From the NCBI RefSeq assembly GCF_009709675.1, contig NZ_WMLB01000006.1, positions 1 to 64,000 on the forward strand: DNA of 64,000 nucleotides, given 5' to 3'. Below, piece after piece: positions 26,004-44,810 of this stretch. A model generated the notes under the pieces. The model did no database searches, was not told the DNA's origin, and saw nothing but the letters and a program-made list of their open reading frames with translations. The first letter of the stretch is position 1; each line of letters opens with the position of its first letter. The stretch is from Agromyces bracchium. Its GTDB lineage: Bacteria > Actinomycetota > Actinomycetes > Actinomycetales > Microbacteriaceae. A program made the translations under genes and the position numbers.

Positions 26004-27002
<999 letters not shown>

Positions 27003-29218: not shown

Positions 29219-30427
29219 TCACACCCGCTCGATGACCGTGGCGATGCCCATGCCCGCGCCGACGCAGAGCGTCGCGAGCCCGCGCTTGGCGTCCCTGCGC
29301 TCCAGCTCGTCGAGGAGCGTGCCGAGGATCATCGCGCCCGTCGCGCCGAGCGGGTGGCCCATCGCGATCGCGCCGCCGTTGACGTTGACCTTCTCGTGCG
29401 GGATGTCGAGGTCCTTCATCCACTTCATGACGACCGACGCGAACGCCTCGTTCAGTTCGAACAGGTCGATGTCGGAGACCTCCAGCCCCGCCTTGTCGAG
29501 CGCCTTGCGCGTGGCGGGCGTCGGGCCGGTGAGCATGATCGTGGGCTCGGAGCCCGTCACCGCGGTCGCCACGATGCGGGCGCGCGGCGTGAGGCCGAAG
29601 CGCTCGCCGACCTCCTTCGAGCCGATGACGAGGAGCGCGGCGCCGTCGACGATGCCCGACGAGTTGCCCGCGGTGTGCACGTGCGAGACACGCTCGACCG
29701 CGTGGTACTTCTGCAGCGCGACCGCGTCGTAGCCGGCCTGGTCGCCGACGCCGGCGAAGGCCGGCTGGAGTGCGCCGAGCGACTCGCCGGTCGAGCCCGG
29801 GCGGCGGTGCTCGTCGGTGTCGAGGAGCGTCACGCCGTTCTGGTCCGTCACGGGCACGACCGAGCCGGCGAAGAAGCCCTGCTCCCACGCGGCCTCTGCC
29901 CGTCGCTGCGACTCGGTCGCGAACGCGTCGACGTCTTCGCGGCTGAAGCCCTCGATCGTCGCGATGAGGTCGGCGCCGATGCCCTGCGGCACGAAGTAGA
30001 GGTCGTAGTTCGTCGTCGGGTCCTGCACGTAGGCGCCGCCGTCGGAGCCGATCGGCACTCGCGACATGGACTCGACGCCGCCCGCGAGGATGAGGTCCTC
30101 GAACCCCGAGGCGACCTTCTGCGCCGCCGTGTTCACGGCCTCGAGCCCCGACGCGCAGAACCGGTTGAGCTGCACGCCCGCGACCGACTCGGGGAGCCCT
30201 GCGACCAGCGCCGCGGTGCGCGCGATGTCGCCGCCCTGCTCGCCGATCGGCGAGACGACGCCGAGGACGATGTCGTCGACCGCGGCCGGGTCGAGCCCGG
30301 GGTTGCGCTCGAGGAGCGCGTCGATCAGGCCGACCACGAGGTCGACCGGCTTGGTTCCGTGCAGCGCCCCGCCGCGGTTCTTCCCGCGGGGGGTGCGCAC
30401 GGCGTCGTAGATGTATGCCTCGCCCAC
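29219..30427 (-). CDS. fadA: Acetyl-CoA C-acyltransferase (thiolase)
   Basis: I prefer GTG 30427 because GGAAGGA lies 6 bases upstream; this gives 402 residues starting [16 protein letters not shown]. The nucleophilic Cys is in [13 protein letters not shown] (about residue 90), the catalytic His in [15 protein letters not shown] and the second Cys in [11 protein letters not shown]. It cleaves 3-ketoacyl-CoA with CoA to give acetyl-CoA. The acyl-CoA dehydrogenase gene ends 14 bases upstream and the FadJ gene starts 11 bases downstream, so the beta-oxidation set is one transcript. Confidence 0.93.
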
Positions 30428-30441
30428 GTCGTTCCTTCCGT

Positions 30442-31617
30442 TCACAGGCCCAGGCTCCGACCGACGATCTCCTTCATGATCTCGGTCGTGCCGCCGTAGA
30501 TGGTCGTGATGCGCGCGTCCTCGTAGTCGCGCGCGATCCGGTACTCGCGCATGTAGCCGTAGCCGCCGTACAGCTGCAGGCAGCGGTTCACGATCTGCAC
30601 GTACTGCTCGGTCGTCCAGTACTTCGCGGCCGCGGCATCCTCTGCCGAGAGCTCGCCGCGCGAGTGGCGCAGGATGCACTGGTCGATGTAGGCCCGGCTC
30701 ACCTGCGTCGCGGTGAACATGTCGGCGAGCTCGAACCGGGTGTTCTGGAACGTGGCGACGGGCCGGCCGAACGCCTGCCGCTCCTTCACGTAGGTCATCG
30801 CCCGCTCGATGACGCCCTCGCTCGAGGCGACCGCGGCGGCCGCGATCGAGAGGCGCTCCTGCGGGAGGTTGCGCATGAGGCCGAGGAAGCCCTGGCCCTC
30901 GGCGCCGAGGAGGTTCGCGGCCGGCACCCGGACGTTCTCGAAGACGAGCTCGCTCGTGTCCTGCGCGTGCAGGCCCACCTTGTCCAGGTTGCGCCCGCGC
31001 GAGAAGCCGGGGGTGTCGGACTCGATCACGAGGAGACTGAGGCCCTTGTGCGGGTCGGAGCCCGTGCGGACCGCGGTGACCACGAGGTCGGCGTTCTGCC
31101 CGTTCGAGATGAAGATCTTGCTGCCGTTGACGACGTAGTCGTCGCCGTCGCGCACGGCGCTCGTGCGGATGCCGGCGAGGTCGCTGCCTGTGCCGGGCTC
31201 GGTCATCGCGACGGCCGTGATGAGCGTGCCCGCGGCGATGCCCGGCAGCCAGCGGCGCTTCTGCTCGTCGTCGGTGAGCTCGAGGAAGTAGGGGATCACG
31301 ATGTCGTTCGACAGCGCGATGCCGGCCATGCCGTCGGAGACCGGGTTGCGGGCGAGCTCCTCGCCCATCACGGCGTTGAAGCGGAAGTCGTCGGTGCCGC
31401 CGCCGCCGAACTCCTCGGGGACGGTGAAGCCGAGGATGCCGGTCTCGGCGGCCTTCTCGAAGAGCCAGCGGTCGACCTTGCCCTCGGCCTCCCACCGCTC
31501 GGCGTTCGGGCGTGCGTAGCGCTCGACGAAGTCGCGCACCATCTCCCGGAACTGCTCGTGCTCCTCCTCGTAGACGGTGCGGATCCGGTCCGCCGTCTGG
31601 AGCGACGTCTGCGGCAT
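30442..31617 (-). CDS. Acyl-CoA dehydrogenase, long-chain (ACADL-like) type
   Basis: The 391-residue FAD enzyme starts at ATG 31617. It has the ACAD segments [14 protein letters not shown] and [11 protein letters not shown]. The C-terminal [16 protein letters not shown] lacks the Glu of the common YEGTSEI motif. Instead a Glu is available in [13 protein letters not shown], as in long-chain/isovaleryl-type enzymes whose catalytic base lies there. It oxidises acyl-CoA to the 2-enoyl-CoA and passes electrons to ETF, encoded at 42982-44810. It is first in the leftward operon, and its promoter region holds two TTTTCTA-type operator candidates. Confidence 0.93.
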
Positions 31618-31688
31618 GTCTCGATCTCCCTCGATCTCGTCGGGGTGTTCCCCGGCTGCACGGTCGAGTGTACGTCCATCCGTGCTCG

Positions 31689-31710
31689 TTTTCTACATTG
31701 GATTAGAAAA
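31689..31710. promoter_or_regulatory. Operator candidate TTTTCTA-N8-TAGAAAA
   Basis: A perfect 7-base inverted repeat with an 8-base spacer lies in the 213-base region between the two divergent acyl-CoA dehydrogenase genes. It is conspicuously AT-rich in GC-rich DNA. The related site at 31767-31788 shares TTTTCTA and a degraded right arm. A TetR-type repressor binding such paired sites would control both directions. Confidence 0.6.
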
Positions 31711-31766
31711 TCTCTTCCGAGACGCTTGCCCGCTGCGCGCATCTCCCGCAGAATCAGGACGACGGA

Positions 31767-31788
31767 TTTTCTAATCCCGATGAGAAGA
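31767..31788. promoter_or_regulatory. Second, degenerate operator candidate TTTTCTA-N7-TGAGAAGA
   Basis: The left arm is identical to that at 31689; the right arm matches in four to five positions. In addition GGATTAGAAAATC at 31700-31712 is the exact reverse complement of GATTTTCTAATCC at 31764-31776, so the two sites are mirror images. This one is closer to the rightward ACAD10/11-like gene. Confidence 0.5.
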
Positions 31789-31830
31789 CGGATGCCGCGC
31801 CGCCGGCACCCCGGAGTCGCGAGGAAGCGA

Positions 31831-33084
31831 ATGGACCACGAGCCGCCCACCATCGACCGACTCGTGCACCGCGTGCGCGACTTCGTCCGCGACGAGGTGA
31901 TCCCCGTGGAGGAGGCGGTGCGCGGCGTCGCCCACCACCACGTCGAGGGTTCCGGCTACGTCGCGGGCGTCGACGCCCGCGACCGCGAGCTGCGCGAGGG
32001 GCTGCGCGACGCGGCCCGCGCGGCGGGCCTCCTGGTCCCCCACCTCCCCGCCGAGTGGGGCGGGCACGGGCTCACCGCACTCGATCAGGCCGCGGTGTTC
32101 GAGGCCGCCGGGTACTCGCTGTTCGGTCCGCTCGCCCTGAACATCCAGGCGCCCGACGAGGGCAACATGCACCTGCTGCTCCACGCCGCGTCGGCCGAGC
32201 AGCAGGAGCGCTGGCTGCGCCCGCTCGCCGCCGGCGAGATCCACTCGGCCTTCGCGATGACCGAGCCGCCGCCCGGCGCGGGCAGCGACCCCCGGGCGCT
32301 CGCGACGACGGCCGAGAAGGTTCCGGGCGGCTGGCGCATCTCGGGCGAGAAGTGGTTCATCACCGGCGCGCGCGACGCGGGCGTCGTGATCGTGCTCGCG
32401 CGCACGTCGGGCGAACCCGGCGATGCGGGCGGCGCCACCATGTTCCTCGTCGAGGGCGGCGCCGCGGGCATGGAGCTCGTGCGCGACGTGCACACGATCG
32501 ACGCCGGCCTCTACGGCGGCCACAGCCTGCTGCGATTCGACGGATGCCTCGTCCCCGACGACGCCGTCCTCGGCGAGGTCGACGGCGGGTTCGCCGCGGC
32601 ACAGGTTCGGCTCGCGCCCGCCCGGCTCACGCACTGCATGCGCTGGCTCGGCCTCGCCGGCCGCGCCCAGGACCTCGCGCTCGCCCACGTGTCCGAGCGG
32701 CGCGGATTCGGTGCGCGCCTCGCCGACCTCGGCCTCGCGCAGCAGCACCTCGCCGACAACGAGATCGACCTCGCCGCATCGCGCGCGGTCATCCGCGAGA
32801 CGGCGCGCGTGCTCGACGCCGGCGATGCTGCCGGCGCCGACGCCGGCACGGCCTCGTCGATCGCGAAGACGTTCGTGGCCGAGGCCGTCGGCCGCATCGT
32901 CGACCGCGCGGTGCAGCTCGCGGGCGGCCAGGGCGTCTCCGACGAGCTGCTGCTCTCGCGGTACTGGCGCGAGGTGCGCCCGTTCCGCATCTACGACGGA
33001 TCGAGCGAGACGCACCGCTGGTCGATCGCCAAGCGCGCGGTGCGCGCACACGGGAAGGGACGCCGCCATGACCTCGCACGATGA
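31831..33084 (+). CDS. Acyl-CoA dehydrogenase family protein, ACAD10/11-like
   Basis: ATG 31831 behind GAGGAAG gives 417 residues. It contains FAMTEPPPGAGSDPRALATT and ISGEKWFITGARDAGV for FAD and substrate binding. The end, RIYDGSSETHRWSIAKRAVR, matches the IYDGP-EVHR pattern of the ACAD10/11 subgroup. Mammalian ACAD10/11 and bacterial LvaC act on 4-phosphoacyl-CoA made by an attached or partner kinase. A kinase of that family is encoded at 40416 and an SDR overlaps this gene by 17 bases. ACAD family is firm; the 4-phospho substrate is inference from subgroup and context. Confidence 0.88.
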   Translation: MDHEPPTIDRLVHRVRDFVRDEVIPVEEAVRGVAHHHVEGSGYVAGVDARDRELREGLRDAARAAGLLVPHLPAEWGGHGLTALDQAAVFEAAGYSLFGPLALNIQAPDEGNMHLLLHAASAEQQERWLRPLAAGEIHSAFAMTEPPPGAGSDPRALATTAEKVPGGWRISGEKWFITGARDAGVVIVLARTSGEPGDAGGATMFLVEGGAAGMELVRDVHTIDAGLYGGHSLLRFDGCLVPDDAVLGEVDGGFAAAQVRLAPARLTHCMRWLGLAGRAQDLALAHVSERRGFGARLADLGLAQQHLADNEIDLAASRAVIRETARVLDAGDAAGADAGTASSIAKTFVAEAVGRIVDRAVQLAGGQGVSDELLLSRYWREVRPFRIYDGSSETHRWSIAKRAVRAHGKGRRHDLAR

Positions 33085-33922
33085 CGCGACCGCCGCGGCG
33101 GCCTTCGCGGGCCCCGGGGGCTCCGGAGCCGCGGCCGCGGGCTCGGAGACGGAGACCGCCGCCGGCCCTGCCGCGGCCGCCGTCGGCGCGAGCCCCCGCG
33201 CGGCCCTGATCACGGGCGGCTCGCGCGGCATCGGCCTCGAGATCGCCCGCGCCCTCGCCGCCGACGGCTTCGCCCTCACGCTCTCCGCGCGCTCGCCCGA
33301 GCCGCTCGAGGCCGCCGCTGCCGAGCTCGCCGCAACGGGCGCGCAGGTGATCGCGGTCGCCGCCGACGCCTCCGAACCCGACGACCTCGACCGCCTGCTC
33401 GCCGCGCACGAGCAACGCTGGGGGCGCCTCGACGCGCTCGTCATGAACGCCGGCATGGGCCACGGCAGCCTGATCGCCGAGACGCCGCTCCGGCGCGTCG
33501 ACAAGCACTACACGCTGAACGTCCGCGGCACGTTCGCACTGCTCTCCTCGGCGCTGCCGCTGCTGCGCGAGACCGCGGCATCCGACCCGCGCGGCGCGCG
33601 CGTCATCGCCCTCGCCTCGCTTGCGGGCCTCATGGCCGAGCCGGGACTCGCCGCCTACAGCGCCACCAAGGCCGCCGTCGTCTCGCTGTGCGAGGCGCTG
33701 TGCGCCGAGGAGGGCGCGAACGGCGTCAGCGCGACCGCGATCTGCCCGGGCTACGTCGACACCGACATGGCCGCGTGGAAGCACGACGAGATCCCGGCGT
33801 CCGAGATGATCAAGGCGGCGGATGTCGCCGAGCTCGCCGTCTCGCTCACGCGCCTGTCGCGCAACGCCGCCGTGCCGGTCCTGGCGGTGCACCGCGCCGG
33901 CGGCGGGCTCCGCGGCGCCTGA
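33068..33922 (+). CDS. Short-chain dehydrogenase/reductase (SDR)
   Basis: The 284-residue product starts at ATG 33068, 17 bases before the end of the acyl-CoA dehydrogenase gene. About 40 Ala/Gly-rich residues precede the Rossmann motif TGGSRGIG. The catalytic motif is YSATK with an upstream Ser in ALASLAG, and NAGMGH marks the NNAG position. It should oxidise or reduce a hydroxyl/keto group with NAD(P)H. In an Lva-like route it would reduce 4-ketoacyl-CoA to 4-hydroxyacyl-CoA (LvaD role). Other roles such as 3-hydroxyacyl oxidation are equally compatible with sequence alone. Confidence 0.88.
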   Translation: MTSHDDATAAAAFAGPGGSGAAAAGSETETAAGPAAAAVGASPRAALITGGSRGIGLEIARALAADGFALTLSARSPEPLEAAAAELAATGAQVIAVAADASEPDDLDRLLAAHEQRWGRLDALVMNAGMGHGSLIAETPLRRVDKHYTLNVRGTFALLSSALPLLRETAASDPRGARVIALASLAGLMAEPGLAAYSATKAAVVSLCEALCAEEGANGVSATAICPGYVDTDMAAWKHDEIPASEMIKAADVAELAVSLTRLSRNAAVPVLAVHRAGGGLRGA

Positions 33923-33950
33923 GCCGCCATCCTGGCCGCCGCCACCTCGG

Positions 33951-33999
33951 CGAGTGCCCGGTTCCGCGACCGCTGCGCGGTCGTTCGCCCGCGCACTCG
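33951..33999. terminator. Two-tier stem-loop between convergent genes
   Basis: An outer stem CGAGTGC (33951-33957) pairs with GCACTCG (33993-33999). Inside it, CGACCGC-TGC-GCGGTCG forms a perfect inner hairpin (33967-33983). It lies between the convergent SDR and alcohol dehydrogenase genes and fits a bidirectional terminator. The remaining parts of 33923-34149 hold nothing else I can support. Confidence 0.55.
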
Positions 34000-34149
34000 T
34001 CGCGGAAGCGCGCACCTGGCGAGGCGGACGGCGGCCGCCGCCGAGACCCGGCGCCGGGTCAGTCGGCGCGGCGACCGGGCAGCCGGCGGATGGCGCCGCC
34101 GAGGGTGGTGCGGGCCGGGCGGTCGGTGGGTCCGTCCGGCCTGATCGGC

Positions 34150-35751
34150 TCAGTCGGGTTCGGCGACCGCGACGTCGCGGTCCTCGTCCCGTTCGAGCAC
34201 GAAGTAGTAGCTGCGGCCCGCGTCGGCGGTGCCGCGACCGGTCATGACGCCGAGCACGGCGTCGGGCGAGAGCCGGACGAAGCAGTCGATGATGGGCTGC
34301 CCGTCGTAGGCCATCGCCGCGGTGACGAGGCCGTCGTGCGCCATCCGGCGAAAGCTCGCCCCGCCTCTGGCGAGAACGGGGTCGGCCACCAGGCCGCCGG
34401 CATCCGTCTCGCAGACGATGGGGGCGACATCGTCGTCGGAGCGGAAGAGCTTGCCGTACCACCGACTGCGCGTGAGCAGGCGGTGCGCGGCGTGGCCGGT
34501 GCTGAGGCCCGTGCCCCGCCAGAGCCCGCGGAGCTCGGCGGGTTCGACGGCCGGGAGCGAGCGCCAGAGGGCGGGGAGGTCCTCCTGTGGCACGCGACCG
34601 GAGAGCAGCCGCACGAGCAGGTCGCACGGCGAGCGCGGCGGGGCCGTTCGCCGCTCGTCGTCCCCGTCGGCGTCGGCACGCGACATCCGCAGCACCGGCT
34701 TGATCGAGCGCCCGCTGCGCGCGGCGCCGACCGCGGCGTCGACGTCGGCGAACTCGTAGGGCGAGATCAGCTGCTCGACGGGCAGGCGCCCGGCCCGCCA
34801 CATCGCCTCGAGCGTGGGGAGGTCGCGAGCGATGTCGGCGTCGCCCTCGATGACGCCAGTGATCGTGCGACCCCAGAGCAGCTTCGACTGCGAGACCGTG
34901 ACCCGGTTCGACCCCGGCTTGAGGGCGACCGTCGCGCACGTGCCGCGTGCCGCGAGTGCGCCGAGCGCGGCGTCGACGGAGTCCTGCGAGCCGACCGTGT
35001 CGAGCACGGCCTCGAACTGCGGGCGACCCCGGAGCGCCGCGGCGAGCGCGTCGGGTGTGTGCGCCTCGGTCGCGCCGAGCTCGAGCGCGAGTTCCCGGCG
35101 GGCGGGGATCGGGTCGCTCACGACGATCCCGGCGAGCCCGCGATGCCGCGCCGCCATGACCGCCGCGAGCCCGGTGGTGCCCGCCCCGAGGACGAGGAGC
35201 GAGTCCGCCGGGCCCGGGCGGAGCACGTTCAGGACGGCGCCGGCTCCGGTCAGCACACCGCAGCCGAGTGTCGCGGCGACCGGCCACGGTACGTCCTCGC
35301 CGATCGCGACGGCGCTCGACGCGCGGACGACCACGTGGGTCGACCAGGCCGACTGGCCCATCCAGCCCGCGGTCACGGGCTCCCCCGCCGCGGCGAAGTC
35401 GACCGGCGCGCCCTGGTTGAGGGCCGCGAACCGCTCGCAGTAGGCGGGATGGCCATCGAGGCAGGCCAGGCACTCGCGGCAGGAGGCGAAGCCGAGCGCC
35501 ACGCGGTCGCCGGGCCGGAGCGTCTCGACGCTCGCGCCGACCGCCTCGACGACGCCGGCGCCCTCGTGTCCGAACACCGCCGGGAACCGGTCGCCGGCGC
35601 CGCCGTCGATGCCGAACATGTCGGTCGGGCAGACGCCCGAGGCCATCACCCGGACGAGGATCTCCTCCTCGCCCGGCGCTCGGAGGGTCACGTCCGAGAG
35701 CGTGACGGATCCGCCGCGCTCGCGGACGAGCGCGGCCACTGCCGCGGTCAT
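34150..35751 (-). CDS. Zinc alcohol dehydrogenase fused to a GXWXG/DUF4334 domain
   Basis: The product is 533 residues from ATG 35751. Residues 1-355 are a complete medium-chain zinc dehydrogenase: catalytic Cys in SGVCPTDM, GHEGAG, the structural zinc set C-x2-C-x2-C-x7-C in CRECLACLDGHPAYC, and coenzyme motif LGAGTTGLAA. The dehydrogenase would normally end at IKPVLRM, residues about 350-356. Here it continues through a short charged linker into a GXWXG/DUF4334 domain (about 375-530) with LRGLWRGTG, RSRWYGKLFRS and VMTGRG. That domain is usually a separate protein of unknown function in alcohol/terpenoid or PHA-related loci. No stop or frameshift interrupts the junction. It follows the acyl-CoA ligase by 4 bases, so they form one operon. 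Confidence 0.88.
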   Translation of the reverse strand: MTAAVAALVRERGGSVTLSDVTLRAPGEEEILVRVMASGVCPTDMFGIDGGAGDRFPAVFGHEGAGVVEAVGASVETLRPGDRVALGFASCRECLACLDGHPAYCERFAALNQGAPVDFAAAGEPVTAGWMGQSAWSTHVVVRASSAVAIGEDVPWPVAATLGCGVLTGAGAVLNVLRPGPADSLLVLGAGTTGLAAVMAARHRGLAGIVVSDPIPARRELALELGATEAHTPDALAAALRGRPQFEAVLDTVGSQDSVDAALGALAARGTCATVALKPGSNRVTVSQSKLLWGRTITGVIEGDADIARDLPTLEAMWRAGRLPVEQLISPYEFADVDAAVGAARSGRSIKPVLRMSRADADGDDERRTAPPRSPCDLLVRLLSGRVPQEDLPALWRSLPAVEPAELRGLWRGTGLSTGHAAHRLLTRSRWYGKLFRSDDDVAPIVCETDAGGLVADPVLARGGASFRRMAHDGLVTAAMAYDGQPIIDCFVRLSPDAVLGVMTGRGTADAGRSYYFVLERDEDRDVAVAEPD

Positions 35752-35755
35752 GGCC

Positions 35756-37333
35756 CTAGACCTGCGCGGGCTCTCGGTCTGCGGCGCGCAGCGCGACCTT
35801 GTTCACCTTGCCGCCGGCGTTGCGCGGCAGGACCTCCATGACGACGACGTGCTTGGGCTGCTTGAACCGTGCGAGCTTGTCGGCGAGGAACTCGGCGAGC
35901 GCCTCGACGGTGAGTTCGGTCTCGGGCACGAGCACGACCGCCGCGACGGGCACCTCGCCCCAGCGCTCGTCGGCGCGGCCGTAGACGGCGACGTCGGCCA
36001 CGTGCGGGTGCGAGGCGAGCACGTTCTCGACCTCGGCGCAGTAGACGTTCTCGCCGCCCGAGATGATCATGTCCTTCTTGCGGTCGACGACCCAGACGAA
36101 GCCCTCCTCGTCCTGGCGGACGAGGTCGCCCGAGTGGAACCAACCGCCCTCGAACGCCTCGGCCGTCTCGTGGGGCTTCCGCCAGTAGCCCTTCATCATG
36201 GTCGGCCCGCGGTAGATGATCTCGCCGACCTGGCCCGGGGCGACGTCGTTCATCTCGTCGTCGACGACGCGGGTCTGGATGGTCGGGATCGGCTTGCCGA
36301 CCGAGCCGAGCTTGCGCAGCGAGTCGGGCCCGCGGAGCACGCACGTGATGGGCGACATCTCGGTCTGGCCGAAGACCGCCGTGTTCAGGGCGTTCGGGAA
36401 GGTCTCCTCCATCTGGCGGAGCAGCGTGTCGCTCGCGGGCGCGGCACCCCAGCTGATGATGCGGAGGGCGAGGTCGCGATCCTTGATGCCGGGCAGCGCG
36501 CAGATCGCCTGCCACTGCTGCGGCACGTTGAAGACGATGGTCGCGCGCTCCTTCTCCCACGCGTCGACGATCGCGGCGGGGTCGAACGCCCCGAGCGGAT
36601 GGATGATCGTCGGAATGCCGATGATGAAGTTCGGCGCGATCGAGCCGAGGCCCGCGATGTGGAACAGCGGCGCGGTCATGAACGCGATGTCGGACTCGTC
36701 GACGACGCCGTTCGCGCGGATGCAGGTGATCGCCTGGGCGTAGAGGTTGATGTGGTCGAGCATCGCGCCCTTGGGGCGGCCGGTCGTGCCCGACGTGTAC
36801 ATGATGAGCGCCGTGGCATCCTCGGGGATGTCGGGCGCCTGGAACCCGTCGAGGTCCTCGGCGATGAGGTCCTCCAGCGCCTCCTGCCCCTCGCCGGCCT
36901 GGGTGCCGAGCACGATCGCGCGCTCGATGCGCGAGGTGAACTGCCCGACGACGCCCACGAGCGGCGCGAGCGGCGCGTCGACGACGATCACCGAGGCGTC
37001 GGCGTCGTCGACGATGTACGCGATCTCGGGCGGGGTGAGCCGGATGTTGATCGGTACCGCGATCGCGCCGAGCGTGTTGACCGCGAAGACCGTCTCGACG
37101 ACCTCGGGGCTGTTCAGAGTCAGCATCAGCACGCGGTCGCCCTCGGCGACCCCGCGGCGGCGGAGCGCGGCGGCGAGGTGCGTCACGCGGTCGTGGACCT
37201 GCGACCAGGTCCAGTCGCGGCCCAGGTAGCGGAAGGCCAGGGCGTCGGGCTGGTTCGACGCGTGGATCGCGACCTGGTTCATCCAGTGGTTGCGACGCGC
37301 CGACCGCGGGATGACGGGGGCTTCGGTGCTCAT
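35756..37333 (-). CDS. Acyl-CoA ligase (AMP-dependent, FadD-like)
   Basis: The product is 525 residues from ATG 37333. It has the AMP/ATP-binding P-loop TSGTTGRPKGAML (about 175-187), the YGQTE-position motif AVFGQTEMSP, the hinge block HSGDLVRQDEEGFVWVVDRKKDMI and the C-terminal Lys in PRNAGGKVNK. It activates a fatty or other carboxylic acid to acyl-CoA via acyl-AMP. Chain length cannot be read from sequence. It heads the operon with the ADH-DUF4334 gene and is divergent from the tandem-TetR gene; the palindrome at 37447 lies between them. Confidence 0.92.
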   Translation of the reverse strand: MSTEAPVIPRSARRNHWMNQVAIHASNQPDALAFRYLGRDWTWSQVHDRVTHLAAALRRRGVAEGDRVLMLTLNSPEVVETVFAVNTLGAIAVPINIRLTPPEIAYIVDDADASVIVVDAPLAPLVGVVGQFTSRIERAIVLGTQAGEGQEALEDLIAEDLDGFQAPDIPEDATALIMYTSGTTGRPKGAMLDHINLYAQAITCIRANGVVDESDIAFMTAPLFHIAGLGSIAPNFIIGIPTIIHPLGAFDPAAIVDAWEKERATIVFNVPQQWQAICALPGIKDRDLALRIISWGAAPASDTLLRQMEETFPNALNTAVFGQTEMSPITCVLRGPDSLRKLGSVGKPIPTIQTRVVDDEMNDVAPGQVGEIIYRGPTMMKGYWRKPHETAEAFEGGWFHSGDLVRQDEEGFVWVVDRKKDMIISGGENVYCAEVENVLASHPHVADVAVYGRADERWGEVPVAAVVLVPETELTVEALAEFLADKLARFKQPKHVVVMEVLPRNAGGKVNKVALRAADREPAQV

Positions 37334-37446
37334 TCGGGAGTCCCTTTCGTACTTCGCTGTACCGCCGCCGGGTTCGGGCCCGATGGCTCAGGTGATGCCA
37401 GTATGCCTCGCCGAACGCCGGATGTCACGACTTTTGTTAATTTCGA

Positions 37447-37463
37447 TTCACACGACTTGTGAA
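37447..37463. promoter_or_regulatory. Operator candidate TTCACA-N5-TGTGAA
   Basis: A perfect 6-base inverted repeat with a 5-base spacer lies in an AT-rich stretch (37430-37470) between the acyl-CoA ligase and the tandem-TetR gene. It is about 48 bases before the regulator start. It suits autoregulation of the tandem-TetR protein and control of the ligase operon. Confidence 0.55.
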
Positions 37464-37510
37464 CAGTCATTCACGGCGCCCGTGGGCCGCGCCTGCGATA
37501 GCCTGTGGTG

Positions 37511-38749
37511 ATGGGCACGATGGAGGCGCCGACCGCGGACGCAGGGGTTCGCCGGGTCAGGCCGAAGGACCGGCGCCAGCAGATCGCGATGGCCGCCGCG
37601 ACCCTCTTCTCCGAGCGCGGGTTCCACCAGGTCAGCCTCGGCGAGGTCGCCTCGGCCGTCGGCATCTCCGCCCCGGCGCTCTACCGGCATTTCCCCAACA
37701 AGTACGCGCTCTTCCTCGACGCGGCGAACCGGCTCGCGCACGGCCTGATCGAGGCGACCGACGAGCTCGTCGCCGCGCAGGCCGACGACGCCGACGACCC
37801 CGAGACCGCGAGGGCCGAGTACGACGCGATCGTCTCGGCCATCGTCGAGACGACGATCGACAACCGGCTGACCGGCGGGCTCTACCGCTGGGAGGGCCGC
37901 TACCTCGAGCCCGACGACCGCCGGAAGCTCCAAGACGAGTTCGCCGAGCTGGCGAGCCGCGTGCGGCGGCCGCTCGAGCGAATGCGGCCGGGCCTCCCCG
38001 ACGACGACGCGCGCCTGCTCGCCGCGGCGGCGCTCAGCGTGGTCGCGAGCATCACCTCGCACCATGTGAGCATGGCCCGCCGCACGCTCGCCGACCTCCT
38101 GCTCGAATGCGCCGACGATGTGGCCGCGAGTCACCTCCCCCGACCCGACCGCGGTGCCGAGACGGATGCCGCGGGCATCCCGAGCGCGTCCAAGCGCGAG
38201 CTCATCGTGCGCGAGGCGCTCGCACTGTTCCACCGCAACGGCTACCACGACACCGGGATCGAGGACATCAGCGCCGCCGTCGGGCTCACGCCGTCGGGCT
38301 TCTACCGGTACTTCGAGAGCAAGTCCGAGCTGCTCCTCGAGGCGTGCGTCCGCGCGTCGGAACGACTGAACGCGACCACCGCCGACGCGCTCGAGGGCGC
38401 GGCATCCCCCGACGAGGCCCTGCACCGCCTGGTCGACGCCTACGTGGCCCACAGCTTCACGCACCGCGAGCTGATGAGCGTCTACTTCTCCGACGTGGGC
38501 GCGCTGCCCGACGCCGAGCAGGAGCGCCTCCGCGGCATCCAGCGCCGCCACGTCGACGAGTGGGTGTCGCTCCTGCGCACGGCACGCCCCGACCTGTCGA
38601 CGAGCGCGGCGCGCGTGCGCGTGCACGCCGGCCTCAACGTCGTGGTCGACATCGGCCGGATCGTGCACTTCGACAACTCGCCCTCGACGCGTGCTCGGGT
38701 CGCGGCGATCGTGCGGGCGGCGCTCGGCGTGCGCGAGGCGGCGGCGTAG
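37511..38749 (+). CDS. Transcriptional regulator with two tandem TetR modules
   Basis: The product is 412 residues from ATG 37511 (a GTG lies 2 codons upstream). Two complete TetR DNA-binding domains are present. The first lies at about 20-65 (AAATLFSERGFHQVSLGEVA, then SAPALYRHFPNK). The second lies at about 228-272 (EALALFHRNGYHDTGIEDIS, then TPSGFYRYFESK). Each is followed by its own helical C-terminal region, so the protein looks like a head-to-tail fusion of two repressors, an intramolecular dimer. It is divergent from the acyl-CoA ligase and probably represses part of the catabolic region. Confidence 0.9.
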   Translation: MGTMEAPTADAGVRRVRPKDRRQQIAMAAATLFSERGFHQVSLGEVASAVGISAPALYRHFPNKYALFLDAANRLAHGLIEATDELVAAQADDADDPETARAEYDAIVSAIVETTIDNRLTGGLYRWEGRYLEPDDRRKLQDEFAELASRVRRPLERMRPGLPDDDARLLAAAALSVVASITSHHVSMARRTLADLLLECADDVAASHLPRPDRGAETDAAGIPSASKRELIVREALALFHRNGYHDTGIEDISAAVGLTPSGFYRYFESKSELLLEACVRASERLNATTADALEGAASPDEALHRLVDAYVAHSFTHRELMSVYFSDVGALPDAEQERLRGIQRRHVDEWVSLLRTARPDLSTSAARVRVHAGLNVVVDIGRIVHFDNSPSTRARVAAIVRAALGVREAAA

Positions 38750-38855
38750 TCGCCGGATCGCCCCGCCGCTGACGGCCCGCCGCTCGAGCAACACGGGCCC
38801 GCAAACGCGCCGACGCGGCCGCCGTCAGGCGACCGCGCCGGCGGGCTGCTCCTCG

Positions 38856-40361
38856 TCAGTGCTTCCTGCCCTTGGCGTGCAGCATGTGCAGCATCCGCTC
38901 CGCGAGGTGCATGTCGCGCTCGGACCGGTCCATGGTGAGCAGGTCGATGAACGCCTTGCTCTTCTGCACGGCGATCGACTTCGCCACGCTGAACTCGCGC
39001 AGCCCGTCGGCGCCGTGGATCCGGCCGAAGCCCGACTCGCCGCGACCGCCGAACGGCAGCCCGGGGATCCCGCCGAAGCCGAGCACCGAGTTGATGCTCA
39101 CGGCCCCGCAGCGCAGGCGCTCGGCGATCTCGAGACCGGCGTGGTGGTCCTTGGTGAACACCGACGCGGAGAGGCCGTACTCGGTGGAGTTCGCCTTGAC
39201 GATCGCCTCGTCGACGTCCTCCACGCGGTCGACCACGAGCACCGGGCCGAAGGTCTCCTCCTGCACGACCGCGCAGTCGTCGGGCACGCCCGTGAGGATC
39301 ACCGGGCCGACGTAGCCGTCCTTCACCGAGTCGGCGCCGCCGAGCACGGCGGTCGCGCCGCGCTCGAGCGCACCGGTGATCTGCGACGAGATGACCTCGG
39401 ACTGGCGCGCGAGCGTCATCGGCCCGTAGCTGGCGGATGCCTCGGGGCCGGGCTTCAGTCGCGCGGCCGAGGCGACGAGCTTCTCCACGAACGCGTCGTA
39501 GACGGGCGCCTCGACGTAGACGCGCTCGACGCCCGCGCAGGTCTGGCCGGCGTTGCCCATGCCGCCGAAGACGGCGAAGCCGACGGCCGCGTCGAGGTCG
39601 GCCTGGCGCGTGACGATCATCGCGTCCTTGCCGCCGGCCTCGACCACGATGGGCGTGAGGTTGCGGGCGGCCGCGGCCATCACCTTGCGGGCCGTGCCGG
39701 GTGAGCCGGTGAACGCGACCTTGTCGACGGCGGATGACGCGAGCGCCTCGCCGGTCGCCCCGTCGCCGACCACGACCTGGAGCACGGGTCGATCGGGTGC
39801 GACGCGGTTCCACGCCTCCTCGATCCACTTGGCGGTGGCGGGCGTGAGCTCGCTGGGCTTGAACACGACGACGTTGCCGGCCGAGAGCGCGTACCCGATC
39901 GAGCCCATGGGCGTGTAGAACGGGTAATTCCATGGGCCGATGACGCCCACGACGCCGAACGGCTCGTAGCCGACGCTCGCGGCCTGGTTGTAGCTCGCGA
40001 GGCCCGAGGCGACCTTGCGACGGCGCAGCACCTTGCCGGCGTTCTTGGACGCCCAGTCGAGGTGCGTGAGCGTGAGCACGACCTCGAGCAGCGCGTCATC
40101 CGGCGTCTTGCCCGTCTCGCGGGAGATGACGGATGCCAGGTCGCGCGCGTTCGAGGCGATCTCGGCCTTCCAGGCCTGGAGCAGCTTCTGACGGCCCGCG
40201 AAGCCCTGCGCGCGCCACCAGTGCGCGACATCGGCGGCGGCGGTGACGGCGCGGTCGACGTCGGCGGGCCCGGCGACCGGATAGGTCGCGATGGCCGAGC
40301 CGTCGCGCGGGTCGGTGGTGGTGAGTTGTGTGGCGGTGGGCCCGTCGGCGATGAGTGTCAC
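38856..40361 (-). CDS. Aldehyde dehydrogenase (NAD(P)-dependent)
   Basis: The 501-residue product starts at ATG 40361. It has the coenzyme segment GVIGPWNYPFYTPMG, the glutamate motif VVEAGGKDAMIV and the nucleophile Cys in GNAGQTCAGVERVY. These give a complete catalytic set. Closest in feel to coniferyl/succinate-semialdehyde-type ALDHs, but the aldehyde is not predictable. It may oxidise the aldehyde made by the zinc alcohol dehydrogenase at 34150 and so feed acid to the ligase. It is separated from the kinase gene upstream by 54 bases that contain a strong palindrome. Confidence 0.92.
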   Translation of the reverse strand: MTLIADGPTATQLTTTDPRDGSAIATYPVAGPADVDRAVTAAADVAHWWRAQGFAGRQKLLQAWKAEIASNARDLASVISRETGKTPDDALLEVVLTLTHLDWASKNAGKVLRRRKVASGLASYNQAASVGYEPFGVVGVIGPWNYPFYTPMGSIGYALSAGNVVVFKPSELTPATAKWIEEAWNRVAPDRPVLQVVVGDGATGEALASSAVDKVAFTGSPGTARKVMAAAARNLTPIVVEAGGKDAMIVTRQADLDAAVGFAVFGGMGNAGQTCAGVERVYVEAPVYDAFVEKLVASAARLKPGPEASASYGPMTLARQSEVISSQITGALERGATAVLGGADSVKDGYVGPVILTGVPDDCAVVQEETFGPVLVVDRVEDVDEAIVKANSTEYGLSASVFTKDHHAGLEIAERLRCGAVSINSVLGFGGIPGLPFGGRGESGFGRIHGADGLREFSVAKSIAVQKSKAFIDLLTMDRSERDMHLAERMLHMLHAKGRKH

Positions 40362-40388
40362 GGCCGTCCCTTCGTCGTTGAATGAACC

Positions 40389-40412
40389 GAACCAAGAAGT
40401 GAATCTTGGTTC
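40389..40412. promoter_or_regulatory. Operator candidate GAACCAAGA-N6-TCTTGGTTC
   Basis: A perfect 9-base inverted repeat (24 bases in all) lies 28 bases upstream of the ALDH start and directly after the stop of the phosphotransferase gene. An overlapping TGAACC/GGTTCA pair extends it. It resembles a TetR-family operator controlling the ALDH gene separately from the etf operon. Confidence 0.65.
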
Positions 40413-40415
40413 ACA

Positions 40416-41612
40416 CTACGCCGAGGTGACCCTCGGCACAAGATCGAGATAGCCGGATGCCACCTCGAGCAGTTGCGGCACGCCGGTCTCGAGCTTCGGC
40501 GCGAACGTCGTGTCGTCCGGCCGCTCCCCGGCGCGCCAGCGCGTGTAGATCGCCTCGCTGAAGATCGCGGACTTCCAGAGCGCGAGTGCCTGGTACCAGG
40601 GCAGCGCGCTCGTGTCGGCGCCCGTCAGGCTCGCGTAGCGCTCGACGAGGCCCGCCCGGTCGGGGAACCCGTCGAGCCGGGTCACGGGCGAGAGCTCCAT
40701 CGTGGTCGCGGGCGAACCGGGCTCGCTCCACGTGGCGGCGAGGTAGCCGAGGTCGGCGAGCGGGTCGCCGAGCGTCGACATCTCCCAGTCGAGCACGGCA
40801 CCGACCGTCGGCGCCGCACCGGCCGTGAACATGAGGTTGCCGAGGCGGAAGTCTCCATGCACGAGCGCCGGACGCGCCGTCGTGGGCAACGCGGCGGCGA
40901 GCCGGTCGGCCACCTCGTCGACGCGCGGCAGTTCCCGCCGCGAGACCGTGCCCCACAGTCCGCGGAACCGCGACACCTGCCGTTCGAGGTAGCCGCCGGG
41001 CCGTCCGAACCCGCCGAGCGGGCCGGTCGTGACGTCGATCGCGTGCAGTCGGGCGAGCGCGTCGACCGCGGCATCCGCCACCCGCGACCGCTGCGCCGGC
41101 TCGTCGAACCGTTCGGGCAGCGCGTCGGTGATGACGTCGCCGCGAAGGTAGCCCATGACGTAGAACGGCACGCCGAGGAGCGTCGGGTCCTCGCACGTCG
41201 AGTGGATCTCGGCGACCGGGTAGCCCTCGGCGTGCAGCAGTCGCTGGATGCGCGCCTCGCGCAGCATGTCGTGCGCCGACGGCGGCAACGGCGGTCGGGG
41301 CCCGCGTCGCAGTACGACCTCGGCGTCGCCCCGGCGGAGCAGGAAGGTCACGTTCGACTGCCCCTCCCCGATGCGCGCCCACGCGGTCGGCCCTGCGCCG
41401 ATGCCGTGCTCGTCGAGGTGGCGGGCGACGGTCTCGAGCACGAGCAGCGGTGGCGAGCTGAGGGCGGATGCCTCGGCCGCGGTCGCGACGACGTCGCGAC
41501 CGTCGGGCTCCGACGACAGGTGGGGGCCGGCGCCGATCTCAGACTCGGTCTCGGGCGCGGTCTCGAGCGCCTGCGCGGTCTCAGGCGCCTGCTCGTTCCC
41601 CTGCACGCTCAT
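40416..41612 (-). CDS. Phosphotransferase (APH/ACAD10-11 kinase-like, LvaA-type)
   Basis: The product is 398 residues from ATG 41612, overlapping the cytochrome b stop (ATGA). It has a Glu/Ala-rich N-terminal tail (about 1-50), then an aminoglycoside-phosphotransferase fold. The nucleotide-binding segment is GEGQSNVTFLLRRG, the catalytic loop LVHGDFRLGNLMF, and the metal-binding loop VLDWEMSTLGDPLADLGYL. In this subgroup (ACAD10/11 N-terminal domain, LvaA) the kinase phosphorylates 4-hydroxyacyl-CoA. Antibiotic resistance is unlikely given the metabolic operon. Kinase fold is firm; substrate is inference. Confidence 0.85.
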   Translation of the reverse strand: MSVQGNEQAPETAQALETAPETESEIGAGPHLSSEPDGRDVVATAAEASALSSPPLLVLETVARHLDEHGIGAGPTAWARIGEGQSNVTFLLRRGDAEVVLRRGPRPPLPPSAHDMLREARIQRLLHAEGYPVAEIHSTCEDPTLLGVPFYVMGYLRGDVITDALPERFDEPAQRSRVADAAVDALARLHAIDVTTGPLGGFGRPGGYLERQVSRFRGLWGTVSRRELPRVDEVADRLAAALPTTARPALVHGDFRLGNLMFTAGAAPTVGAVLDWEMSTLGDPLADLGYLAATWSEPGSPATTMELSPVTRLDGFPDRAGLVERYASLTGADTSALPWYQALALWKSAIFSEAIYTRWRAGERPDDTTFAPKLETGVPQLLEVASGYLDLVPRVTSA

Positions 41613-42985
41613 CGGTTGCTCACCCTTCCGAACAGGCCCGCGACGGGCGCGAGCACGAGCGGCCTGGCGGCCACCCATGCGGCGGCGATGACGAGGAGCG
41701 ACCCCGCGAAGACGATGAAGCCGACCCAGTTCACGGCGTCCTGTCCGCCGTACATGTGGTTGAGGTTCCGCAGCGCCCCGGTCGCGAGCACGAGCGCGAC
41801 GTGCACGACGACGAACGCGACGAAGTACAGCATCACCGGGAAGTGGATCGCGCGCGCGACCTCGACCGGGTAGACGCGGCTCAGCGTCGTCGCGCGTGCG
41901 GGCCAGAGCCCCGACATCCGCACGCCCGAGATCACCGCGAGCGGCGCCGCGACGAACACCGTCGCGAAGTAGGTCGACTGCTGCAGGCCGTTGTAGTGCA
42001 CCCAGCCGTTCTCGGTCGGCCAGTCGAGCGACGCGTACTGCAGGGCGGCCGAGATCGCGTTCGGCACGACCTCCCAGCTCGTCGGCACGATCCGCATCCA
42101 CTGCCCGGTCGCGAACAGCAGCACGACGAAGGCGACGCCGTTGACGAGCCAGAGCAGGTCGAGCGACTGGTGGAACCAGAGGTTCAGGCCGATCTTGCGC
42201 GACGGGTTCCAGCGCGGGGTCCAGTAGGCGGCCGGTCGCCGCTCGCGGCGCACCTGCCAGCCCGAGCGCACGATCAGCACCATCAGGAACACGTTGAAGA
42301 AGTGCTGCCAGGCGAGCCACGCCGGGAAGCCGACGGGCGCACCCTCGGGCATCGGCGCCTCGCCCGGGTACGCGGCGAGGAACGCCTGCACGCCGTCGAG
42401 CGTCCGCAGCCAGCGGGCGACGAGCACGACCGCGGCGGCGAGGAGGACGAGGCCGACGGCTGCGAGCGCCCGGCGCGCCCGGGGGCGAGCGGGGGCGGAT
42501 GCGTCGGGGGCCGTGGTCGCGGCGGCGTATGCCTCGAGCGCGTCATCAGCGGCGGCGGCCACGGGTTCGGCCGGATCGGAGGAGGCGACGGGTTCGGCCG
42601 GATCGGAGGAGGCGACGGCCTCGGACATCGCCGCGGCGGGCGCGAAGCCGGCTGGCGGCCATGGCCCACCGCGCGCGCGACGCGGAAGACCACGGCGGAG
42701 CGCACGGGTGCCGACCGGTCCGCCACCAGGAGGCAGGGCGCTTTCGGTTGCGGAGTCCTGCACGGCCGTGGCGACGGGAGCGACCCCGGCCTCGGCGATC
42801 GCGGCGGGCGCTGCCGCGCTGCCGGACGTAGCCACTGCGGGCGCGGCATCCGTCATGGCAGCTGCCGGAGCCGCGACCGCCATTGCCACCGCCGCGCTCT
42901 CGGTCTCGAAGCCCGCGGACGGCCACGCCTCGCCGCCCGGGCGGCGGGGCAGGCCGCGTCGGACGGGCGTCCGGGTCGCGGTCAC
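41609..42985 (-). CDS. Cytochrome b/b561-like membrane protein with a long N-terminal extension carrying a duplicated RRGLPRR motif
   Basis: GTG 42985 overlaps the etfA stop (GTGA), fixing the start; 458 residues. The C-terminal part (about 170-455) has about five spans. It has His candidates for heme in [20 protein letters not shown] and the pair in [20 protein letters not shown] (13 residues between), as in b561-type di-heme proteins. The first 170 residues are Ala/Pro-rich and probably disordered, yet hold two copies of an 18-residue motif: R9-F26 and R97-F114, both RRGLPRR-x2-G-x2-WP-x-AGF. A tandem nine-residue ASSDPAEPV repeat follows. Linked to etfBA, it may pass electrons from reduced ETF to quinone; that is inference. 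Confidence 0.82.
42561..42614 (-). repeat. Exact 27-base tandem repeat in the cytochrome b N-terminal extension
   Basis: Two identical, adjacent 27-base units (42561-42587 and 42588-42614) encode the nine-residue repeat around SSDPAEPVA. The frame is kept. Exact identity suggests a recent duplication in a disordered region. Confidence 0.85.
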
Positions 42986-44019
42986 GCGAGCACCTTCCTC
43001 GTCTCGAGCGCGGTGATGAGCTGCGGCACGACCTCGAAGGCGTCGCCCACGATGCCGAAGTCCGCGATCTCGAAGATCGGGGCGTCGGCGTCGGTGTTGA
43101 TCGCCACGATCGTCTTCGCGGTCTGCATTCCGGCGCGGTGCTGGATGGCGCCCGAGATGCCGAGCGCGACGTAGAGCTGCGGCGAGACCGAGACGCCGGT
43201 CTGCCCGACCTGCTGGCTCTGCGGCACGAAGCCCGCGTCGACGGCCGCGCGCGAGGCGCCGACCGCAGCGCCGAGCGCGTCGGCGAGCTGCTCGACGAGC
43301 GCGAAGCGCTCCTCGGAGCCGAGGCCGCGGCCGCCGGAGACGACCCTCGCGGCGCCGCGCAGCTCGGGGCGCCCGGTCTCGATGACCCTCGCCTCGACCG
43401 ACTCGACGGTGGCCGCACGGCGGCCGGATGCCGCGACCGCGAGCGGCTCGGACTGCGGCGGCTGCGCCTCGACACGGGCGTCGATCGCGCCGATGCGGAC
43501 GGTGATGACGGGGGCGCCGAAGGTGACCGCCGAGGCCACGTCGTAGGCTCCGCCGTAGACCGAGTGATGGGCGACCACGCCCTCGTCGTCGCGCGAGACC
43601 GCCACCGCGTCGACCGCGAGGCCCGAGCGGGTGCGCGCCGCGAAGCGCGCGGCGACCTCGCGACCCTCGATCGAGTGCGACACGAGCACGGCGTCGGGGC
43701 GGACCAGCTCCGCGGCCGCGGCCAGGGCGTCGACTGCGGGAACGGTGAGCTGCGCCGGCTCGTCGGGACGTGCGACGAGCACGCGCGTCGCGCCGAGGCG
43801 AGCCGCGGCATCCGCCAGGTCGTCGGCGTCGCCGTCGCCGTACGGCGGGACGATCACGAGCGCGACCGGGGTGCCGACGCCGGCCGCGGCGCCGAGCAGG
43901 CCCGCCGCGGTCGGCGCGAGGCCGCCCTCGAGCGCCGTGTCGAGGAGGACGAGGATCGGGGCGCCGAGGCGATCGGGCTGCGCGGGCAGGTCGGGCTGTG
44001 CGGGCATCGGGGTCTCCAT
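42982..44019 (-). CDS. etfA: Electron transfer flavoprotein subunit alpha
   Basis: The 345-residue product starts at ATG 44019, sharing one base with the etfB stop. The C-terminal FAD domain contains [58 protein letters not shown] and [20 protein letters not shown], the diagnostic ETF-alpha blocks. With EtfB it accepts electrons from acyl-CoA dehydrogenases (two are encoded at 30442 and 31831) and carries them to a membrane acceptor. No ETF-quinone oxidoreductase (EtfD/FixC) gene is in the window, whereas a cytochrome b gene is coupled directly downstream. Confidence 0.95.
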
Positions 44020-44810
44020 CAGGCGAGCCGGTTCTCGACGAGGCGGTTCTCGAGGAGGAACGTGGCGAGTTGCTCGCCGGCGTCGCCCTCGTCGGTGATC
44101 TTGGTTCCGCCCGACCGGGGCGGGCGCTCCGAGATCGTGATCATGATCGAGCGCGCGGTCGCGGCATCCGCTGCATCGAGGTCGAGGTCGGCGAGCGAGA
44201 GGGTCTCGAGCGGCTTCTTCTTGGCCGCCATGATGCCCTTGAAGGTCGCGAAGCGCGGGTCGGGCAGGCGCTCGGTGATCGAGATCACGGCGGGCAGCTC
44301 GGCCGTCACGCGCGCCGTGCCGCCGTCGGTCGCGCGGACGCCGGAGACCGTGCCGTCGGCGATCTCGACGGACTCGAGCCGGGTCGCCTGCGCCACGTCG
44401 AGGAACTCGGCGACCATCGCCGGCACGACCCCTCCGGAGCCGTCGGTCGACTGGTCGCCCGCGATCACGAGGTCGAAGCCCGTGCGGCGGGCGGCCGCCG
44501 CGAGGACCTCGGCCGTGAGCACGAGGTCGGCGCCGAGAAGCGCCTCGTCGACCACGTGCACGGCGCGCGCCGCGCCCATCGCGAGCGCCTTCCGCAGGCT
44601 GGATGCCGCGGGCTCGGCGCCCATCGTCATGACGACGACCTCGGTGTCCGGGTGCTCGTCGGCGTGACGCAGGGCGACTTCGAGGGCGCGCTCGCCGATC
44701 TCGTCGACGACCCGCTCGCTCGACTCACGATCGGCGAGGCCGGTCTCGAGGTCGAGCCGCCGGTCGGCGTAGGTGTCGGGGACGTCCTTGACCAGGACGA
44801 GGATCCTCAT
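44019..44810 (-). CDS. etfB: Electron transfer flavoprotein subunit beta
   Basis: The product is 263 residues from ATG 44810. It starts [20 protein letters not shown] and contains [47 protein letters not shown] and [23 protein letters not shown], the last being the ETF-beta recognition-type loop region. It binds AMP and forms the ETF heterodimer with EtfA. It is first of four coupled genes; its promoter is at 44865-44893. Confidence 0.95.

Follow-up and report, generated by a model that had tools for sequence, protein, structure and literature searches.

A predicted 4-hydroxyacyl-CoA entry route into beta-oxidation in Agromyces bracchium that pairs an LvaC-type dehydrogenase with a displaced RQ-loop kinase

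The window analyzed here, a 64,000-nucleotide stretch of the genome of the soil actinobacterium Agromyces bracchium (RefSeq assembly GCF_009709675.1, contig NZ_WMLB01000006.1, positions 1 to 64,000), contains a gene cluster that a first-pass annotation had read as a possible 4-hydroxyacyl-CoA (levulinate-type) catabolic system. Gene identities were checked using Pfam, with NCBIfam and Protein Data Bank (PDB) sequence searches for some proteins. The plus strand encodes an LvaC-type acyl-CoA dehydrogenase (ACAD; 31831..33084, 417 aa), which carries Pfam ACAD domains, has 4hr3 and ACAD11 (8v3u) as its best PDB matches, and is predicted to be a 4-phosphoacyl-CoA eliminating enzyme. The next gene on this strand encodes a short-chain dehydrogenase/reductase (SDR; 33068..33922, Pfam adh_short) with a putative LvaD-like role in 4-keto/4-hydroxy interconversion; the two genes overlap by 17 nt, provided that the SDR starts at the ATG at 33068. 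On the minus strand lie a FadD5-like acyl-CoA ligase (35756..37333; Pfam AMP-binding), which scores 733.1 bits against an NCBIfam FadD5 cut-off of 733, and an aminoglycoside phosphotransferase (APH)-fold kinase with a [YF]xxRQ loop (40416..41612; 398 aa from the ATG at 41612), a predicted 4-hydroxyacyl-CoA kinase.

Divergent from the ACAD-SDR pair, the minus strand carries an ordinary acyl-CoA dehydrogenase, FadE (30442..31617), without the HCMR motif or the Asp at the base position that mark the LvaC-type enzyme, as well as a thiolase (29219..30430) and FadJ (27003..29150; hydratase plus 3-hydroxyacyl-CoA dehydrogenase), both identified by Pfam and NCBIfam with predicted starts, and a nitronate monooxygenase/FabK-like flavoprotein (NMO; 26004..26993) that adjoins FadJ in related clusters too. 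All genes named by the first-pass annotation (ligase, SDR, ACAD, APH kinase, thiolase, FadJ, and a second ACAD) are present by Pfam. As it had described, they are split over several operons and are not contiguous, with 7.3 kb separating the ACAD and the kinase on opposite strands.

The same interval contains genes that had not been listed. A zinc alcohol dehydrogenase (ADH) is fused to GXWXG and DUF4334 domains (34150..35751, minus strand; Pfam), and full-length matches to this fusion occur in Agromyces luteolus and in two further genomes, G017 and G353 (G and L numbers are our handles for genomes and loci). A regulator with two TetR_N stretches in a single chain (37505..38749, plus strand; Pfam) stays beside the aldehyde dehydrogenase (ALDH) gene in related clusters. 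The ALDH (38856..40361, minus strand; Pfam Aldedh) resembles succinate-semialdehyde dehydrogenase (SSADH), its best NCBIfam match, at 370 bits, which is under the cut-off of 521. Also on the minus strand are the electron transfer flavoprotein (ETF) subunits EtfB (44019..44810; Pfam ETF) and EtfA (42982..44019; Pfam ETF and ETF_alpha), and a cytochrome b561 (41609..42985; Pfam Ni_hydr_CYTB) with N-terminal RRGLPR...WP motif repeats, whose gene overlaps those of etfA and the kinase. The kinase most likely starts at the ATG at 41612, which shares four bases (ATGA) with the cytochrome b561 stop codon, and this places the kinase fourth in an etfB-etfA-cytb561-kinase-ALDH row instead of on its own.

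According to the available part of PMC12440821, ACAD10/11 and LvaC have in common an arginine (R626), an HCMR motif, and an aspartate (D753). In the PDB alignment, RLAPARLTHCMR of the window ACAD is aligned with RLGPGRIHHCMR of mouse ACAD11, and the window Arg at -8, HCMR, and Asp correspond to mouse R626, H634-R637, and D753. The Asp, within IYDGSSE, pairs with the position mutated to Asn in chain 8v3v (D753N). The ACADs of lva operons (Azotobacter, Stutzerimonas, and a Pseudomonas plasmid that carries a named lvaB) also have RLAPARLTHCMR, together with IYDGPSE. The full hallmark set of LvaC/ACAD10/11 enzymes (Arg, HCMR, and a catalytic Asp near the FAD) is present in the window ACAD. A search of the A. 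bracchium genome (4.16 Mb, with a stated completeness of 100%) with this protein gave seven matches; apart from the query itself, these are six proteins of 27-33% identity in which the hallmark residues are missing.

In a tree of 51 ACADs, for which the program warned of long branches including the outgroup rows, the LvaC and ACAD11 groups formed one clade against an outgroup of four ordinary ACADs from the A. bracchium genome (support 100/100). The window ACAD fell within the LvaC part (96/81 and 99/92), not the ACAD11 part. The first pass had described an ACAD10/11 ending, IYDGSSETHR. The hallmarks shared with those enzymes are indeed there, but the ending itself (RIYDGSSE) is LvaC-like, resembling the IYDGPSE of lva operons, whereas the ACAD11 counterpart is LADGPDEVH, and the ACAD10/11 label does not hold. 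As judged from sequence, the closest relative of the window ACAD is LvaC, not ACAD10/11, and the enzyme would be expected to eliminate phosphate without an external electron acceptor. None of the window proteins received an LvaA or LvaC assignment from NCBIfam, nor did the scanned proteins of two plasmid lva operons (L180 and L049); because it is silent even on the latter, NCBIfam cannot decide membership.

The kinase query yielded a single match in the A. bracchium genome (E <= 1e-5). Its motifs include HDMLRE, GYLERQ, and LVHGDFRLGN, with the catalytic Asp and Asn both present; most kinase searches used a 354-aa core (40419-41480). The protein agrees with ACAD11 in LVHGDFRLGN, in the RQ loop, and in the Arg next to the Glu of helix C, this Arg being equated cautiously because the R86 numbering in the available part of PMC12440821 disagrees with a count along the printed chain. 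The catalytic Asp/Asn and the CoA-side Args that characterize ACAD10/11-type (RQ-loop) kinases are all found in the window protein. By sequence, it is close to 9o56, 3dxp, and ACAD11 (E 2.3e-59 to 3.2e-42). In fold searches, ACAD11 (8v3v) ranked 25th by Foldseek, and neither 8v3v nor 9o56 was among the 50 VIA-align rows; the nearness to ACAD11 is therefore based on sequence, not on fold rank. The kinase tree, from which two distant Sphingomonas kinases were left out and which carries a long-branch warning for the Thermus row, separated three LvaA-type rows from 41 others (100/100), with the window kinase among the 41. Its placement in this tree is outside LvaA proper and on the side with ACAD11. 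The phylogenetic comparison suggested in the first pass thus gave a divided answer: the ACAD does belong to the LvaC clade, and the kinase does not belong with LvaA but lies on the ACAD11 side.

We compared the arrangement of these genes across related genomes. Agromyces genomes G001, G006, and G016 have an ACAD-kinase-SDR operon at the same site, divergent from FadE-thiolase-FadJ-NMO, and this gene order also occurs in Georgenia (L010) and Rhodococcus (L011). In contrast, the ACAD adjoins the SDR in the window, A. luteolus, G017, and G353, and the kinase sits after cytochrome b561; G022 has the same pieces on separate contigs. The ACAD tree places the window beside G001/G006/G016 (98/95), and the window SDR is 60-63% identical to the SDR of the ACAD-kinase-SDR operons in these three genomes. 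The kinase tree places the window with the SDR-ACAD-kinase operons of Agromyces G018, G021, G024, and G340, Arthrobacter, and Phytohabitans. Constraining the window kinase to the G001 type cost 176.8 log-likelihood units in an approximately unbiased (AU) test (p 2.7e-50), the tested group having been chosen after the clade had appeared in an earlier tree and not named blind. On this comparative evidence, the kinase is displaced: the ACAD and the kinase appear to derive from different pathway lineages and to form a chimeric pair now.

The cluster of A. luteolus (L072) is the same, with most proteins 90-98% identical to those of the window (SDR, 87%; cytochrome, 76%). Changes between the two clusters are mostly synonymous, with dN/dS values of 0.23 for the kinase, 0.09 for the ACAD, and 0.11 for the SDR. 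G340 carries SDR-ACAD-kinase-etfB-etfA-cytb561 at the same site, an arrangement that suggests the origin of the kinase-ETF link. In G552, which belongs to another family, a single stretch contains FadJ-thiolase-FadE, etfB-etfA-cytb561-ACAD-SDR, the kinase, the ligase, a TetR2-like regulator, ALDH, and ADH; the ACAD of this genome has HAMR in place of HCMR. That one gene set is re-ordered in G340, G552, and other genomes argues that its parts work together.

We surveyed co-occurrence in 60 Agromyces genomes with cut-offs of E <= 1e-20 for the kinase and E <= 1e-55 for the ACAD. The kinase was detected in 22 genomes and the ACAD in 19, and all 19 ACAD genomes also had the kinase (Fisher P = 7.5e-13, which is not a count of independent events, as the genomes are related). 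The remaining three kinase genomes (G325, G354, and G023) have an adjacent LvaC/ACAD11-like match that scores under the ACAD cut-off. In a first survey of 40 relatives with a stricter ACAD cut-off (1e-60), the kinase was found in 16 and the ACAD in 10.

LvaB is the name given in the L180 record to a DUF6285-like protein, and in two lva-type operons on plasmids, L044 and L049, a DUF6285 gene follows that of the kinase. The first pass had seen no LvaB homologue; a DUF6285 profile built for this analysis likewise found none in the window, and the A. bracchium genome as a whole gave no DUF6285/LvaB match, an absence that fits the kinase type. Across the class, DUF6285 was detected in 39 of 296 genomes, none of them Agromyces. 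A kinase lay within 1.5 kb in 24 of 30 DUF6285 loci from this search, and none of the 24 had the RQ loop. Among the six loci without a kinase at that distance, the three viewed more widely all had a Thermus-type kinase, loopless in the matched part. With eight plasmid kinases included, the RQ loop was present in 0 of 32 LvaB-linked kinases compared with 39 of the 41 not linked to DUF6285, both exceptions being the distant Sphingomonas kinases; the loop test also accepts Arg-Ala, which was found in one row (Cupriavidus P-10). The Fisher p of 1.1e-18 for this contrast overstates the independent evidence, since essentially one clade is compared with the rest. The DUF6285 profile matched all 30 controls; in the 38 remaining loci of the set, of which 37 have a kinase and one (L060, the ACAD side of G022) has none, it found nothing. 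The window kinase is therefore of the kind that occurs without LvaB, like ACAD10/11, and the absence of LvaB does not count against function. Sister ACADs from Comamonas (RQ-loop kinase, without DUF6285) and Azoarcus (LvaA-type kinase with DUF6285), joined at 100/96, suggest a natural exchange between the two kinase forms. A histidine-phosphatase-family gene stands right behind DUF6285 in several lva-type operons (L044, L048, and L181-L183), and no such gene was found among the window open reading frames (ORFs) scanned. No mention of DUF6285 turned up in the literature searched.

Among known systems, the Pseudomonas lva operon (LvaA-LvaE; plasmid copies L180, with lvaB named, L044, and L049) resembles the window in having an LvaC-type ACAD with the same hallmarks (48-49% identical), an SDR, an acyl-CoA ligase, and an APH-fold kinase. 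It differs in containing LvaB/DUF6285, in a kinase of another subfamily (20-24% identical), in its contiguous lvaABCD(E) layout, and in a PrpR-like gene (L044 and L180) where the window has TetR regulators; the window adds ADH, ALDH, ETF, and cytochrome b561. Mammalian ACAD11 (8v3u/8v3v; available part of PMC12440821) likewise has an RQ-loop kinase with the catalytic Asp/Asn and an ACAD with the Arg, HCMR, and Asp. In the window, however, the two are unfused, and the ACAD (31% identical) lies in a sister clade, with the kinase 33% identical. Outside the window's own type, the nearest ACADs (58-70%) belong to ACAD-kinase-SDR operons (G001/G006/G016, L010, L011, and Streptomyces L046); the kinase of these operons is encoded between ACAD and SDR and shares 31-41% identity with that of the window. 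The closest kinases outside its own type (57-63%) belong to SDR-ACAD-kinase operons (G018/G021/G024/G340, Arthrobacter L009, and Phytohabitans L073), in which the ACAD is 52-56% identical (53% in G340) and adjoins the kinase. On Rhodococcus plasmids L011 and L057, an LvaC-type ACAD and an RQ-loop kinase adjoin acyl-CoA carboxylase genes, with an AtuA-like acyclic terpene gene also in L011, a neighborhood in which a terpenoid use of the same chemistry is possible.

We propose, with a probability of about 0.75, that the cluster encodes a 4-hydroxyacyl-CoA entry route into beta-oxidation that would work like LvaA/LvaC and ACAD10/11 without a need for LvaB. The mechanism, in which the 4-hydroxyl is phosphorylated and the phosphate expelled, is described in the available parts of PMC12440821 and PMC11342911. 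A 4-hydroxy or 4-keto acid may come from the ADH fusion and ALDH; the FadD5-like ligase would convert this acid to its CoA ester, and the SDR would reduce the 4-keto group to 4-hydroxy. The kinase would phosphorylate the 4-hydroxyl of the 4-hydroxyacyl-CoA, and the LvaC-type ACAD would expel the phosphate in a redox-neutral FAD reaction to yield 2-enoyl-CoA. FadJ and thiolase would complete the round, with FadE and ETF serving later rounds. Phosphorylation-elimination is the best reading because of the hallmarks and clade of the ACAD, the kinase type, its displacement, and the co-occurrence of the two genes; together with gene-set conservation, these make the chemistry put forward in the first pass well supported as a prediction.

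Several observations weigh against this proposal. Sequence identity between the window kinase and ACAD11 is just 33%, and with LvaA-type kinases it is 20-24%. An lva-operon LvaC is 34% identical to mouse ACAD11 in our comparison, at odds with the LvaC-ACAD10/11 identities of 62/56% given in the available part of PMC11342911. Among 15 genomes from the same order but other genera, 4 have a kinase match and no ACAD at 1e-60; at this sensitivity, the kinase family does not always come with an ACAD partner. A role in C4 semialdehyde or diol metabolism would suit the SSADH-like ALDH just as well, and no assay of a close relative of the window kinase or ACAD was found. The particular substrate named in the first pass, levulinate or a lactone, is not supported: the cluster offers no pointer to levulinate in particular, neither a transporter specific for levulinate nor LvaR nor a ligase clearly resembling LvaE was seen among its genes, and the literature matches listed held nothing relevant on levulinate use in actinobacteria.

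The same chemistry may instead act on longer or branched 4-hydroxy acids (gamma-lactones, lipid-peroxidation products, or 1,4-diols), for which we consider the odds to be about even. The ADH fusion, ALDH, and FadD5-like ligase belong to the conserved set, and mammalian ACAD10/11 act on 4-hydroxy fatty acids (available parts of PMC12440821 and PMC11342911), whereas no lactonase or cytochrome P450 was found among the ORFs scanned and ligase specificity is not readable from sequence. It is improbable that the kinase has a non-CoA alcohol as its substrate, in the manner of 25-hydroxysteroid kinase, and an indirect link to the ACAD, since its sequence is much nearer to 9o56, 3dxp, and ACAD11 and none of the 60 Agromyces genomes has the ACAD without the kinase. 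Slightly less probable still is a reading of the 31831 protein as an ordinary acyl-CoA dehydrogenase, with the kinase as an unrelated housekeeping enzyme. The neighboring FadE, thiolase, FadJ, and ETF genes would suit such a role, but the base-position Asp and Arg/HCMR, missing from the other ACAD matches of the genome, argue against it, as do the co-occurrence and displacement of the kinase.

The A. bracchium genome has two EtfA genes, each with a nearby cytochrome b561; around a third cytochrome copy, on contig C31, there is no ETF match within roughly 3 kb. ETF:quinone oxidoreductase (ETF-QO; PF05187) was not detected in this genome by a search in which 3 of 14 controls were positive, nor was the CCG domain of EtfD (PF02754), for which 12 of 14 controls were positive. 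In a search of 297 genomes of the order, EtfA lay within 1.5 kb in 22 of the 30 cytochrome b561 loci retrieved. The tail motif RRGLPRxxGGxPWPPxG, a pattern built after seeing the window copies and counted anywhere in the locus, was present in 18 of 22 ETF-linked loci compared with 1 of 8 others, and these repeats in the N-terminal tail are possibly an ETF docking motif. In mycobacterial EtfD, Fe-S domains are combined with a membrane part that binds heme b (available part of PMC13083937), whereas the window has only the b-type cytochrome. The cytochrome b561 beside etfA is a candidate for a new ETF:menaquinone (quinone) oxidoreductase. A PDB sequence search with its core gave no match, and its structure model was not used (pLDDT 41.5). 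No ETF-cytochrome b561 enzyme was among the literature matches listed, and the string RRGLPR had only an unrelated occurrence in the literature searched. Elsewhere in the window (7967-10477, minus strand), a pyridine nucleotide-disulphide oxidoreductase is fused to rhodanese, TusA, and DsrE-like domains.

A broader proposal, which we offer tentatively and hold to be somewhat doubtful as a whole, joins these lines: the RQ-loop kinase would be complete, its loop holding the CoA side; the LvaA form would have lost the loop, with LvaB supplying its function in trans; the window would show the kinase swapping between ACAD partners; and cytochrome b561 with RRGLPRxxGGxPWPPxG repeats would be a third kind of ETF:menaquinone oxidoreductase, replacing ETF-QO and EtfD.

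Collectively, our results would extend the phosphorylation-elimination route to an actinobacterial gene set present in at least two families and present the kinase as an exchangeable module. They offer a simple, testable reason why some systems may need LvaB and others, mammalian ACAD10/11 included, may not. If the link between ETF and cytochrome b561 is real, it would fill a gap in electron transfer from beta-oxidation to the quinone pool in actinobacteria without ETF-QO or EtfD.

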